From positions 1 through 18,623 of the forward strand of contig JAATFK010000304.1 of assembly GCA_015655225.1 (NCBI GenBank): DNA of 18,623 nucleotides, given 5' to 3'. Each line of letters begins with the position of its first letter. The stretch's first letter is position 1. Below the pieces are notes generated by a model. That model made no database searches. It saw nothing but the letters and a program-made list of their open reading frames with translations, and was not told where the DNA came from. This document shows, piece by piece, positions 12,203 to 15,762 of the stretch. Origin of the DNA: Solirubrobacterales bacterium (GTDB taxonomy: Bacteria > Actinomycetota > Thermoleophilia > Solirubrobacterales > Solirubrobacteraceae). The translations under genes were made by a program, and so were the position numbers.

Positions 12203-12637
12203 TCAGTCCCGGAGGGCGAGGATGCGCGGCCGCAGGTCGGTCGCCCAGCGCCACAGGGTGAGGTGCGGGAGCGCCACGGCGGCGGCGTCGCGCAGGTCGC
12301 GGTCCTCGGTCGCGAGGGGGACGCCCTGGGCGGCGGCGGTCACGGCGACCCGCGCGTCCTCCTCGCTGACGCCCCGGCTGTCGAGCAGCAGGTCGAGGGC
12401 GGTCGCGAGGCGGTGATCCCGCTCGTCGGGCGGCGGGACCACCAGCACGCGCACGCGCTGCAGCCGGCGGCGGTGCTCGCGGTCCGGAGTGGCGGCGATC
12501 TCGGCGATCGTCTCGGTCGCCGCCCGCAGCTCGAGCCAGCGGGCGGAGGTGAGCCGGTCGACCTCGGCCAGCAGCTCCGGCTCGGCCGCGATCAGGTCGA
12601 AGACCATCGCGTCGATCAGGCAGCGGAGAGCGTCCAC
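12203..12637 (-). CDS. PIN-domain-like protein, orphan
   Basis: Protein of 144 aa with the layout of a PIN-domain RNase: CLIDAMVFD near the N-terminus (Asp9), ETIAEIA in the middle (Glu43/Glu46), and SEEDARVAVTAAAQGVPLATEDRDLRDA near the C-terminus (Asp94, Asp112, Asp114). These acidic residues would bind Mg or Mn for cleavage. PIN proteins are often VapC toxins, but no antitoxin-sized gene is adjacent, so a toxin role is unproven. A GTG at 12637 is chosen because homology begins there; a longer reading from ATG 12796 would add a Ser/Arg/Pro-rich tail antisense to the next gene and its promoter. The first strand, LIDAMVFD, departs from the usual VDTNVL form. Confidence 0.65.
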   Translation of the reverse strand: MDALRCLIDAMVFDLIAAEPELLAEVDRLTSARWLELRAATETIAEIAATPDREHRRRLQRVRVLVVPPPDERDHRLATALDLLLDSRGVSEEDARVAVTAAAQGVPLATEDRDLRDAAAVALPHLTLWRWATDLRPRILALRD

Positions 12638-12683: not shown

Positions 12684-12712
12684 GGGAAGGAGCGGGGCCC
12701 GCGCGGCGTCCT
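12684..12712 (+). promoter_or_regulatory. ECF-sigma-like promoter copy 1 (GGGAAGGA-N12-CGGCGTCCT)
   Basis: GGGAAGGA (12684-12691), 12 nt, then CGGCGTCCT (12704-12712). The same two blocks at the same spacing recur before the cupredoxin gene at 13248. GGAA as -35 and CGTC as -10 is the general shape of ECF-sigma promoters. Transcription would start near 12718, 30 nt before ATG 12748. Confidence 0.6.
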
Positions 12713-12747
12713 GGAGGTGACGCCTTCCCCGACCCGAGAGGATCCCG

Positions 12748-13212
12748 ATGTCCCTGACGTCCTCCGCCGCAGCCCGCACGAACGGCTCGGCGCCACCGGC
12801 GACCGCCGCCGTCGCCCCGCCCGCCGTCACGACCGCCAACCAGCTGCTGCTGGCGCGCGGCGTGACCGTCGTCGGCCTCGCCGGGGTCGGGCTCGTCCAC
12901 GTGCTCGACAGCGTGGACACGTTCCACGAGACACGCTGGCTCTTCTGGCTCTACATGGCGCTGGTGGTCGGCTCGGTGCTCGTCGCCGGTCTCGTCCTCC
13001 AGGGTCATCGCTCGGCGTGGGCGCTCGTCGCGCTGGTCGCGCTGGCGCCGCTCGTCGGCTACGTCGTCAGCCGCACGGTCGGGCTGCCGGGTGACAGCGA
13101 CGACAAGGGCAACTGGACCGAGCCGCTCGGCCTCGCGTCGCTGTGGATCGAGGTCGGGTTGCTCGCGGTCGCCGGCTGGGCCGTCGCGCTGACCGCGCGG
13201 CGCGGCCGCTGA
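12748..13212 (+). CDS. Four-helix membrane protein, cupredoxin-linked, function unknown
   Basis: Integral membrane protein of 154 aa. About 30 polar Ala/Thr/Pro-rich residues precede four hydrophobic segments: roughly 35-52 (LLARGVTVVGLAGVGLVHVL), 64-84 (WLFWLYMALVVGSVLVAGLVL), 88-108 (WALVALVALAPLVGYVVS) and 130-150 (ASLWIEVGLLAVAGWAVAL). Between helices 3 and 4 is a conserved-looking loop, TVGLPGDSDDKGNWTEPLG, and helix 1 carries HVLDSVDTFHE with two His. I know of similar unnamed proteins in actinobacteria but no function. AGAGGA ends 5 nt before ATG 12748. The upstream promoter element is identical to that of the cupredoxin gene 104 nt downstream, so joint expression and a shared copper or redox role is the working inference. 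Confidence 0.75.
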   Translation: MSLTSSAAARTNGSAPPATAAVAPPAVTTANQLLLARGVTVVGLAGVGLVHVLDSVDTFHETRWLFWLYMALVVGSVLVAGLVLQGHRSAWALVALVALAPLVGYVVSRTVGLPGDSDDKGNWTEPLGLASLWIEVGLLAVAGWAVALTARRGR

Positions 13213-13247
13213 CGCCGCGCGTCCGCCGCACCCGCCGAAACGGCTCT

Positions 13248-13276
13248 GGGAAGGAATCGCACCGACCCGGCGTCCT
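13248..13276 (+). promoter_or_regulatory. ECF-sigma-like promoter copy 2 (GGGAAGGA-N12-CGGCGTCCT)
   Basis: GGGAAGGA (13248-13255), 12 unrelated nt, CGGCGTCCT (13268-13276): all 17 fixed bases and the spacing equal copy 1. Transcription would begin near 13282, giving a leader of about 35 nt with a perfect GGAGGT (13305-13310). Confidence 0.6.
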
Positions 13277-13316
13277 CGCTCCCGACAGTCACTTTCCCAT
13301 CACCGGAGGTTCCACC

Positions 13317-13724
13317 TTGTTCGCTTCCCGCAGTCGTCGTCTCGTCCTCTCCGTCCTCGCGGCCGCGATGCTGGTGCTCGCCGCCGCCGTCCCGGCGCTC
13401 GCCGCCAGCTCCGCCAGCTAGACGCTCAGCAACTTCAAGATCACCGGCACGTCGAGCGCGAAGGCCGGCAGCGTGACCTTCAAGGTCAAGAACAGCGCCT
13501 CGATCGAGCACGAGCTGGTCGTCATCAAGACGAACACCCCCGCCGCCAAGCTGAAGGTCAAGAACGGCGAGGCCAGCGAGGCCGGCAGCGTCGGCGAGGT
13601 CGAGCTGGGCGGCGGCTCGTCGAAGACGCTCAAGCTGAACCTGAAGAAGGGTCACTACGTGCTGATCTGCAACGTCAAGGGTCACTACATGGCCGGCATG
13701 CACAAGGACTTCACCGTCAAGTAG
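13317..13724 (+). pseudogene. Secreted cupredoxin (type I copper protein) interrupted by one in-frame amber codon
   Basis: The frame starts at TTG 13317, exactly 6 nt after a perfect GGAGGT, and encodes a signal peptide (FASRSRRLVLSVLAAAMLVL, then AAAVPALAASSAS). TAG follows at 13419-13421 (codon 35), and the same frame continues without a gap as TLSNFKITGTSSAKAGSVTF to a TAG at 13722. The downstream part is an intact cupredoxin: His65 in SIEHEL, then Cys118, His123 and Met128 in LICNVKGHYMAGM, the full type I copper ligand set. A Tyr (TAC/TAT) is the residue expected before TLSNF, so one base change explains the stop. Without readthrough only a 34-residue signal peptide is made; re-initiation (for example GTG 13473) would lack the export signal. 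Sequencing error, recent pseudogenisation and suppression all remain possible. Confidence 0.85.
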
Positions 13725-13837: not shown

Positions 13838-14440
13838 GTGAGCACGGATCCGCCGGCCGACGGCCCCGCACCCCAGCTTCCGGTGGTCGCGCTCGTCGCC
13901 TCGGCGGGTGGGATCGCCGCCGTCTCGCACGTCCTCGGCCAGCTGCCGGCGGGGCTGCCCGCCGCCGTCGTCGTCCTGATCCACCAGGAGCCCGACCGCG
14001 TCGGCACGCTCGTCGAGCTGCTCGCGAACCGCTCGGCGCTGCCGGTTTCGGCGGCGACGCACGGCGGGGCGCTGCGCTCCGGGCAGGTCGTCGTCGCGCC
14101 CGCCGGCTCCCACCTGCTCGTCACGCCCGGGCCCGCGACCGCGCTTGTCGTCTCCGGGGTGGCGCCCCCCAGCCGCCCGTCGGCGGACCTGCTGCTGACG
14201 ACGCTCGCGATCGCCGCCGGCCCGCGCGCGACCGCCGTCGTGCTGTCGGGCGGCGGACACGACGGCGCGACCGGCGCGACCGCCGTCCACGTCTTCGGCG
14301 GGACCGTCGTCGCGACCGACGAGGCGACCTCCAGCTCGTTCTCGATGCCGCTCGCGACGATCGAGCGCGACGGCGCGATCGACCACGTCGTCGCGCTCGA
14401 CGAGGTCGCCCCGCTGCTCGCCGAGCTCGTCGCGGTCTGA
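13838..14440 (+). CDS. Stand-alone CheB-type methylesterase domain protein
   Basis: Protein of 200 aa matching the catalytic domain of the chemotaxis methylesterase CheB. The catalytic triad is visible: Ser22 in ALVASAGG, His49 in VVLIHQEP, and Asp142 in LSGGGHDGATGA. The loop GQVVVAPAGSHLLV and the end motif DEATSSSFSMPLATI also match (compare SAFGMP in the family). The N-terminal receiver domain of a regular CheB (about 350 aa) is absent, so there is no phosphorylation control. No chemoreceptor, CheA or CheR gene is in the window. Such free-standing domains are common in Actinobacteria and may deamidate or demethylate another target. The GTG start at 13838 follows TAGGTT. It is convergent with the DUF6328 gene, with 8 nt between the stops. 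Confidence 0.88.
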   Translation: MSTDPPADGPAPQLPVVALVASAGGIAAVSHVLGQLPAGLPAAVVVLIHQEPDRVGTLVELLANRSALPVSAATHGGALRSGQVVVAPAGSHLLVTPGPATALVVSGVAPPSRPSADLLLTTLAIAAGPRATAVVLSGGGHDGATGATAVHVFGGTVVATDEATSSSFSMPLATIERDGAIDHVVALDEVAPLLAELVAV

Positions 14441-14986: not shown

Positions 14987-15400
14987 ATGGCTGCCCGGAC
15001 GACCCGCTTCGACCGCCGCGAGCTGGCGGCGATCTTCGTCGGCGGCTTCGCCGGCGCGGTCGCGCGGGCGGAGCTGGCGACGATCCAGTCGTCCGGCGCG
15101 GGCGCCTGGCCCTGGGGGACCTTCGCGGTGAACGTCGCGGGCGCGCTCCTGCTCGGCTGGGTCGCGACGCGCCTCGCCGAGCACGTGCCGCCGCGCGCCT
15201 ACCACCGGCCGCTGCTCGGGACCGGCTTCTGCGGCGCGCTGACGACCTTCTCGACGTTCCAGCTGGAGCTGCTGCGGATGCTCGACGGCCACCACGCCGG
15301 GCTGGCGGTCGCGTACGCCGCCGCGAGCATCGCCGGCGGCCTGCTGGCGGTCGCCGCCGGGTCCGCGCTCGCCCGCCAGCCGCGCGCGGTGGCGCCGTGA
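14987..15400 (+). CDS. crcB: Fluoride-specific ion channel CrcB/Fluc, subunit 1
   Basis: Fluoride exporter subunit of 137 aa with four membrane helices. Motifs: FVGGFAGAVARAEL in helix 1, WPWGTFAVNVAGALLLGW in helix 2 (the conserved G-T-f-x-x-N), and GTGFCGALTTFSTFQLELL in helix 3, where TTFSTF lines the fluoride pore and binds the central sodium. The channel lowers cytoplasmic fluoride. It is the first of two overlapping crcB genes (GTGA), and paired genes usually encode subunits of opposite topology that form an antiparallel heterodimer. TAGCGT at 14972-14977 is 9 nt before ATG 14987, leaving no room for a crcB fluoride riboswitch in a transcript starting there. The 20-residue N-terminal charged stretch is slightly longer than usual. 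Confidence 0.92.
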   Translation: MAARTTRFDRRELAAIFVGGFAGAVARAELATIQSSGAGAWPWGTFAVNVAGALLLGWVATRLAEHVPPRAYHRPLLGTGFCGALTTFSTFQLELLRMLDGHHAGLAVAYAAASIAGGLLAVAAGSALARQPRAVAP

Positions 15401-15762
15401 CGCTGCCGGTCGTGCTCGCCATCGGGCTGATCGGCGGCCTCGGCTCGCTCGCCCGCTTCCTGCTCGACGCGGCCGTCGCCGCGCGTGTCGGGCGGGCGTT
15501 CCCGTGGGGGACGCTGACGATCAACCTGTCCGGCTCGTTCGTGCTCGGGCTGCTGACCGGCCTCGCACTGCGAGGCGACGCGCGCCTGATCGTCGCGACC
15601 GGCCTGATCGGCTCCTTCACGACGTTCTCGACCTGGATGCTCGACAGCGTCCTGCTGCGGCGCTCGGGGATGGTGCGGCTCGCGGCGCTCAACGTCGCCG
15701 GCAGCATGCTGCTGGGTTTTGGCGCGGTCGCGCTCGGGAGAGCGATCGGGACCGCGTTCTAG
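15397..15762 (+). CDS. crcB: Fluoride-specific ion channel CrcB/Fluc, subunit 2
   Basis: Second Fluc subunit, 121 aa and four helices. AIGLIGGLGSLARFLLD is helix 1, FPWGTLTINLSGSFVLGLL helix 2 with the conserved Asn, and GLIGSFTTFSTWMLDSVLL helix 3 with TTFSTW, then a final helix AALNVAGSMLLGFGAVALG. The GTG start at 15397 overlaps the stop of the first copy (GTGA), so the two are translated together, which suits a 1:1 heterodimer. Arg and Lys placement differs between the copies (many at the N-terminus of copy 1, few in copy 2), in keeping with opposite membrane orientation (inference). The stop is 9 nt from the convergent hydrolase stop. Confidence 0.92.
   Translation: MTLPVVLAIGLIGGLGSLARFLLDAAVAARVGRAFPWGTLTINLSGSFVLGLLTGLALRGDARLIVATGLIGSFTTFSTWMLDSVLLRRSGMVRLAALNVAGSMLLGFGAVALGRAIGTAF

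Follow-up and report, generated by a model that had tools for sequence, protein, structure and literature searches.

Known systems in which an extracytoplasmic function (ECF) sigma factor is controlled by a membrane anti-sigma factor include RpoE-RseA-RseB of Escherichia coli, AlgU-MucA-MucB of Pseudomonas aeruginosa, and SigE and SigH of Mycobacterium tuberculosis. Sigma-E promoters of Streptomyces coelicolor tolerate a one-nucleotide variation of the spacer, 16 or 17 bp (PMC6767563), and positive autoregulation of the sigma gene is an older ECF hallmark that is not defining, being predicted in about 55% (PMC8103513). We studied a DNA stretch of 18,623 nucleotides (nt), referred to here at its full length as the window, from a Solirubrobacterales bacterium (GenBank assembly GCA_015655225.1, contig JAATFK010000304.1). 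It corresponds to contig C417 of this organism's own assembly (3.9 Mb, 77% complete), and carries the same two-block element, GGGAAGGA-N12-CGGCGTCCT, ahead of two neighbouring genes. Both copies are probably promoters of one ECF-type sigma factor, most likely the one encoded elsewhere in the assembly, on contig C252.

The C252 locus resembles the RpoE, AlgU, SigE and SigH systems in several respects: a two-domain sigma factor is followed by a gene whose product has an N-terminus predicted to be helical, then a hydrophobic helix and a domain outside the membrane; the boxes are of the GGAA and CGTC types; and the targets are mostly exported proteins. With the S. coelicolor sigma-E regulon it shares an actinobacterial ECF regulon of envelope genes and a one-nucleotide spacer variation, although the target genes are others. 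Unlike in the RpoE, AlgU, SigE and SigH systems, its targets are PF03640 proteins and cupredoxins, the motif stands ahead of the anti-sigma gene and not of the sigma gene, and a domain similar to the C-terminal one of RseB and MucB is apparently fused to the anti-sigma factor itself. The -35 block is GGGAAGG, in place of the AAC-type sequence given as a hallmark in PMC8103513.

Two copies of the motif and their recurrence

The element was present twice on the positive strand (12684-12712 and 13248-13276). As the initial annotation had noticed, the copies were equally spaced and identical at all fixed positions (17/17), and their 12-nt spacers were unlike each other; the flanks of the copies also differed. 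No match to this 17-base motif appeared in 200 dinucleotide shuffles of the window, and no third copy was found in the window at up to three mismatches. The intergenic region that holds copy 1 separates a weakly PIN-like gene on the negative strand from the gene of a 154-amino acid (aa) protein on the positive strand; copy 2 lies between the latter and a cupredoxin gene. The distance from CGTCCT to the start codon was 35 nt in copy 1 (ATG, 12748) and 40 nt in copy 2 (TTG, 13317), in agreement with the 35-40 nt first estimated, and both starts are preceded by the Shine-Dalgarno-like sequences that had been pointed out (Table 1).

In its own genome the 17-base motif had three exact matches (reversed control, none), the third of which precedes a lipoprotein gene with a thioredoxin-like match below the cut-off; a match with one mismatch precedes the gene of a PF03640 secreted protein. 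A refined pattern, GGAAG-N14/15-GGCGTCYT, drawn up after some of its sites had been seen, gave six exact matches, all of them ahead of genes (6/6; reversed control, 1). These were the two window genes, the redoxin-like lipoprotein gene, the PF03640 gene just mentioned and two genes on C252; by product, two of the six targets are secreted proteins of family PF03640, and one is a cupredoxin other than that of the window. These six sites and the recurrence in the PF03640 family (see below) support the small regulon that the motif had been expected to reveal. One further site, an exact 15-base match on contig C647, was not counted as part of it; a response-regulator gene ends within it, and the next ATG lies 88 nt further on.

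Recurrence and spacing were computed with a 15-base form, GGGAAGGA-Nx-CGGCGTC, in 151 genomes. Exact matches numbered 30 with a 12-nt spacer (five in the own genome), 13 with 11 nt and 4 with 14 nt, against 6, 2 and 0 for the respective reversed controls; boxes at a near-fixed distance ahead of genes are a feature of ECF-type promoters, and the element shares it. The context of the matches was labelled by eye, with Pfam searches on examples. Among the 25 N12 matches outside the own genome, 15 were promoter-like, 7 lay within genes and 3 were unclear. The promoter-like ones preceded genes for PF03640 (6), cupredoxin-like (4), CHRD (1), repeat-rich secreted (2) and ECF-like (1) proteins, and one stood at a sigma/anti-sigma junction. 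Nine of the 13 N11 matches were promoter-like (cupredoxin-like, 4; a relative of the redoxin-like lipoprotein, PF03640, ferritin-like, small secreted and sigma-divergent, 1 each) and four were not, and none of the four N14 matches was. The products called repeat-rich and ferritin-like are presumed to be such.

The converse search, in which PF03640 genes were sought by family in 61 genomes (34 with matches), recovered 60 genes with a one-member profile; the 400 nt upstream of the domain were scanned, and stretches shorter than 200 nt were dropped. The motif was found upstream of 14, 22 and 28 of the 60 genes at up to one, two and three mismatches, compared with 0, 0 and 2 for both the reversed and the reverse-complement controls.

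The distance from CGTC to the start codon in 30 hand-picked, curated sites was 8-10 nt in five, 19 nt in one and 34-61 nt in 24. If the sites are promoters and the starts are right, transcription of those five genes has to begin at or near a start codon of the leaderless type. This points to a transcription start some 8-10 nt downstream of CGTC, as a -10 box would dictate.

A candidate sigma factor locus on contig C252

The window was said to hold no sigma factor gene, and indeed contig C417 had no Sigma70_r4_2 match at E <= 0.001. Elsewhere in the genome, contig C252 carries a candidate ECF sigma gene (L140:1714-2271). A membrane-protein gene (L140:2268-3110) follows it directly, and after that come two cupredoxin-type genes, of which the first to be named here passes the Pfam cut-off and the other does not. 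Divergent from the sigma gene is a PF03640 lipoprotein gene preceded by the motif with one mismatch of 15 and a spacer of 11 nt. Weaker sites stand ahead of the membrane-protein gene (three mismatches) and of the two cupredoxin genes (two and four). The sigma protein scored over the cut-off of TIGR02937 (sigma70-ECF), its 171-aa orthologue in genome G002 over those of Sigma70_r2 and Sigma70_r4_2, and the NCBIfam SigE models hit it far below their cut-offs; its nearest solved sequences were SigH and SigE of M. tuberculosis.

The membrane-protein gene likely encodes the anti-sigma factor. For its product, prediction gives a helical N-terminus and an RseB-like outer domain, with a hydrophobic helix as well; it had no Pfam match and the NCBIfam antisigma model hit it far below the cut-off. 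In six such anti-sigma proteins (L246, L247, L250, L251, L253 and L257), a single Cys and an FP pair of the outer domain are invariant and may form a site for redox chemistry or for a ligand.

Orthologues of the C252 sigma gene (E <= 1e-20, with only part of the candidates scored in larger genomes) were found in 35 of 91 genomes. In the surroundings of 30 of these genes, 53 kb scanned on both strands at up to two mismatches, the motif recurred and its reversed control did not. The position of the sites was counted at up to three mismatches in the 25 loci that could be parsed (5/30 were left out). The divergent gene had the motif in 10/25, and the sigma/anti-sigma junction had it in 11/25 on the strand of the sigma gene (reversed controls, 1 and 1) and in 0/25 on the opposite one. 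The 250 nt upstream of the sigma gene, read on the strand of that gene, had it in 0/25, so that the positive autoregulation regarded as a hallmark was not seen in the parsed loci. At up to two mismatches in all 30 loci, the sole sigma-strand match before a sigma gene was at -497 (L188); L247 had one two-mismatch match at -131 before its sigma gene. In the two-mismatch scan, the five unparsed loci had two sites at the junction and one at the divergent gene; no site stood close ahead of the sigma gene.

Among the matches listed for named genomes, a set that overlaps the unnamed one, there were 15 sigma loci with 46-67% identity, from Thermoleophilia or from metagenome-assembled genomes labelled Actinomycetes. 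Nine of these had the motif (reversed control, 0); six, including those of Svornostia abyssi and Solirubrobacter soli, did not. Exact N11 or N12 matches were present in 17 of the 35 genomes with the sigma gene vs 8 of the 56 without it (p 0.0005), and among PF03640-bearing genomes the motif was present in 14/22 with the sigma gene vs 1/12 without (p 0.002), in tests that treat related genomes as independent. Because of this position and co-occurrence, we tie the motif to the sigma/anti-sigma locus.

It is unlikely, yet the strongest of the alternatives, that the elements are ECF-type promoters of another sigma factor of this genome, or are common to several. A scan of the genome gave 37 matches of the Sigma70_r4_2 type (E <= 0.001), some of which are not sigma factors; in the Streptomyces case, most tested sigma-E promoters were only partly dependent on sigma-E (PMC6767563); and the sole exact N12 match of genome G001 precedes a different ECF-like gene. 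Against this stand the clustering of motif sites at C252-type loci and the co-occurrence just given: loci of other ECF sigma factors had the motif in only 3/65 (reversed control, 3), a contrast favoured by their lower G+C content (57 vs 72%). The ECF-like gene of G001 was examined as the cognate sigma gene and set aside, its best own-genome match among the fetched loci being only 35% identical, and is kept as a rival. The product of this gene (from L041:165; also L169) is ECF-like, with a long tail rich in Ser, Gly, His and Thr, and an exact motif copy stands 39 nt ahead of the ATG, in a genome where no orthologue of the C252 sigma gene was detected.

Other readings and the genes of the window

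An operator bound by a DNA-binding regulator is improbable. It would also fit a conserved two-block site ahead of genes, the more so as the transcription start is placed from sequence. The blocks, however, are neither inverted nor direct repeats of each other, the distance between them is both 11 and 12 nt, a start codon lies 8-10 nt past the second block in five genes, as expected of a -10 box, and recurrence at sigma/anti-sigma loci would be left unexplained. Chance resemblance or a recent duplication of the intergenic stretch, suggested by copies only 0.56 kb apart, is hardly credible, since spacers and flanks differ, the motif recurs in other genomes and gene families, and the shuffles and the gene-first search contradict this reading.

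Some caveats apply to the reading of the window pair. The genome scan proposed earlier, with one to three mismatches, was swamped by background (100 matches vs 36 controls at up to three). The proposed comparison of relatives covered 13 loci of the 154-aa protein and 29 cupredoxin loci: at up to two mismatches, no upstream motif was found in any but L234, and there it is within the frame. Three further cupredoxin matches were left out of this comparison, and many relatives are distant (28-62% identity), so that orthology is uncertain. Since relatives elsewhere are without the motif, the case for co-control of the window pair is built on the two sites found there; the ECF-type promoter of the original proposal is supported by comparison (recurrence, 11/12-nt spacers, sigma locus). 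In seven genomes of the genus, matches at up to one mismatch numbered 67 vs 25 controls, and the refined pattern gave 15 vs 11 in the six genus-mates, where it is too loose. The flanks of nine two-mismatch matches in the own genome look coding by eye, except for L013, where the site overlaps a gene end. Loose motif scans are uninformative and were left out of the evidence. L013 also contains, at about 1565-1590, a palindrome-like TTAGGGGACCCTAA that looks like a metal-regulator box; it lies ahead of what we take to be a transglutaminase-like gene and upstream of a presumed DtxR-like regulator gene.

Table 1 Features around the two motif copies in the window
Feature	Position	Strand	Remark
Divergent gene	12203..12637	-	Weak PIN-domain match below cut-off; start at 12637 is our choice
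-35-type block GGGAAGGA, copy 1	12684..12691	+	GGAAG invariant across 30 curated sites
-10-type block CGGCGTCCT, copy 1	12704..12712	+	GTC invariant across 30 curated sites
Putative transcription start, copy 1	12719..12721	+	8-10 nt between start and CGTC, from five sites
Shine-Dalgarno-like GAGAGGA	12736..12742	+	By eye
154-aa protein gene	12748..13212	+	Hydrophobic segments (four-helix membrane protein of the initial annotation); no Pfam or NCBIfam match
-35-type block GGGAAGGA, copy 2	13248..13255	+	Motif match
-10-type block CGGCGTCCT, copy 2	13268..13276	+	Motif match
Putative transcription start, copy 2	13283..13285	+	From curated sites
Shine-Dalgarno GGAGG	13305..13309	+	By eye
Cupredoxin gene with signal peptide	13317..13724	+	In-frame TAG at 13419-13421; post-stop part matches SoxE and Copper-bind

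The 154-aa protein was absent from the six genus-mates searched (E <= 1e-4). Domain matches agree with the naming of the second gene as a cupredoxin, and its frame is interrupted by the TAG, which falls directly behind the signal peptide; the remaining frame is intact and conserved. The stop codon may mean that the gene is decaying, that the assembly is wrong or that the frame is read in an unusual way. A cupredoxin relative in G035 (L217), 61% identical, also has an in-frame TAG, at another position. Further downstream are the gene of a CheB methylesterase domain protein (13838-14440, Pfam) and two adjacent genes of small membrane proteins (14987-15400, and a frame ending at 15762), presumably a CrcB fluoride-channel pair by appearance.

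Proposed regulation

As a promoter of the C252 sigma factor, the element would consist of a -35 block GGGAAGGA, 11-12 nt, and a -10 block CGGCGTC, after which (T/C)T is the most frequent continuation; the transcription start would lie some 8-10 nt past CGTC. The motif, its recurrence ahead of genes, the spacing and the association with the C252 sigma locus are computed results, whereas binding, release, signal and feedback are inferred as follows. The anti-sigma factor would keep the sigma factor at the membrane until a signal sensed by its RseB-like outer domain freed it, and the free sigma factor would transcribe genes of exported proteins, namely PF03640 proteins, cupredoxins and the redoxin-like lipoprotein, and in this genome also that of the 154-aa protein. 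Comparison with relatives points to one stress-type sigma factor that would switch on exported copper- and redox-type proteins; copper or redox stress as the signal is our guess from these proteins. Feedback would run via the anti-sigma factor, because the motif recurs at the sigma/anti-sigma junction and not before the sigma gene.

Our limited searches, judged by titles and the beginnings of abstracts, found no literature on ECF sigma factors in Thermoleophilia, including Conexibacter and Solirubrobacter, and nothing to the point on cupredoxins; a limited search also found none linking an ECF sigma factor to Lipoprotein_15 or a sigma factor to COG4315. We propose, tentatively and at somewhat less than even chances, a so far undescribed system of Solirubrobacterales. 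Its sensor would be a single protein that unites the anti-sigma domain, a membrane helix and the RseB-like outer domain; its ECF sigma factor would leave its own gene alone and activate that of the anti-sigma factor, using a promoter located where the sigma gene ends. PF03640 proteins and cupredoxins would thereby serve an extracytoplasmic copper or redox defence under negative feedback.

A short repeat pair thus becomes a testable regulon of a soil lineage, with a promoter sequence, a candidate sigma factor, a candidate sensor and target genes. PF03640 proteins, the 'secreted repeat of unknown function' family, gain a regulatory context through their link to cupredoxins and to the redoxin-like lipoprotein. 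If true, the junction promoter would provide a feedback unlike that of the self-activating ECF operon given as a hallmark in PMC8103513.
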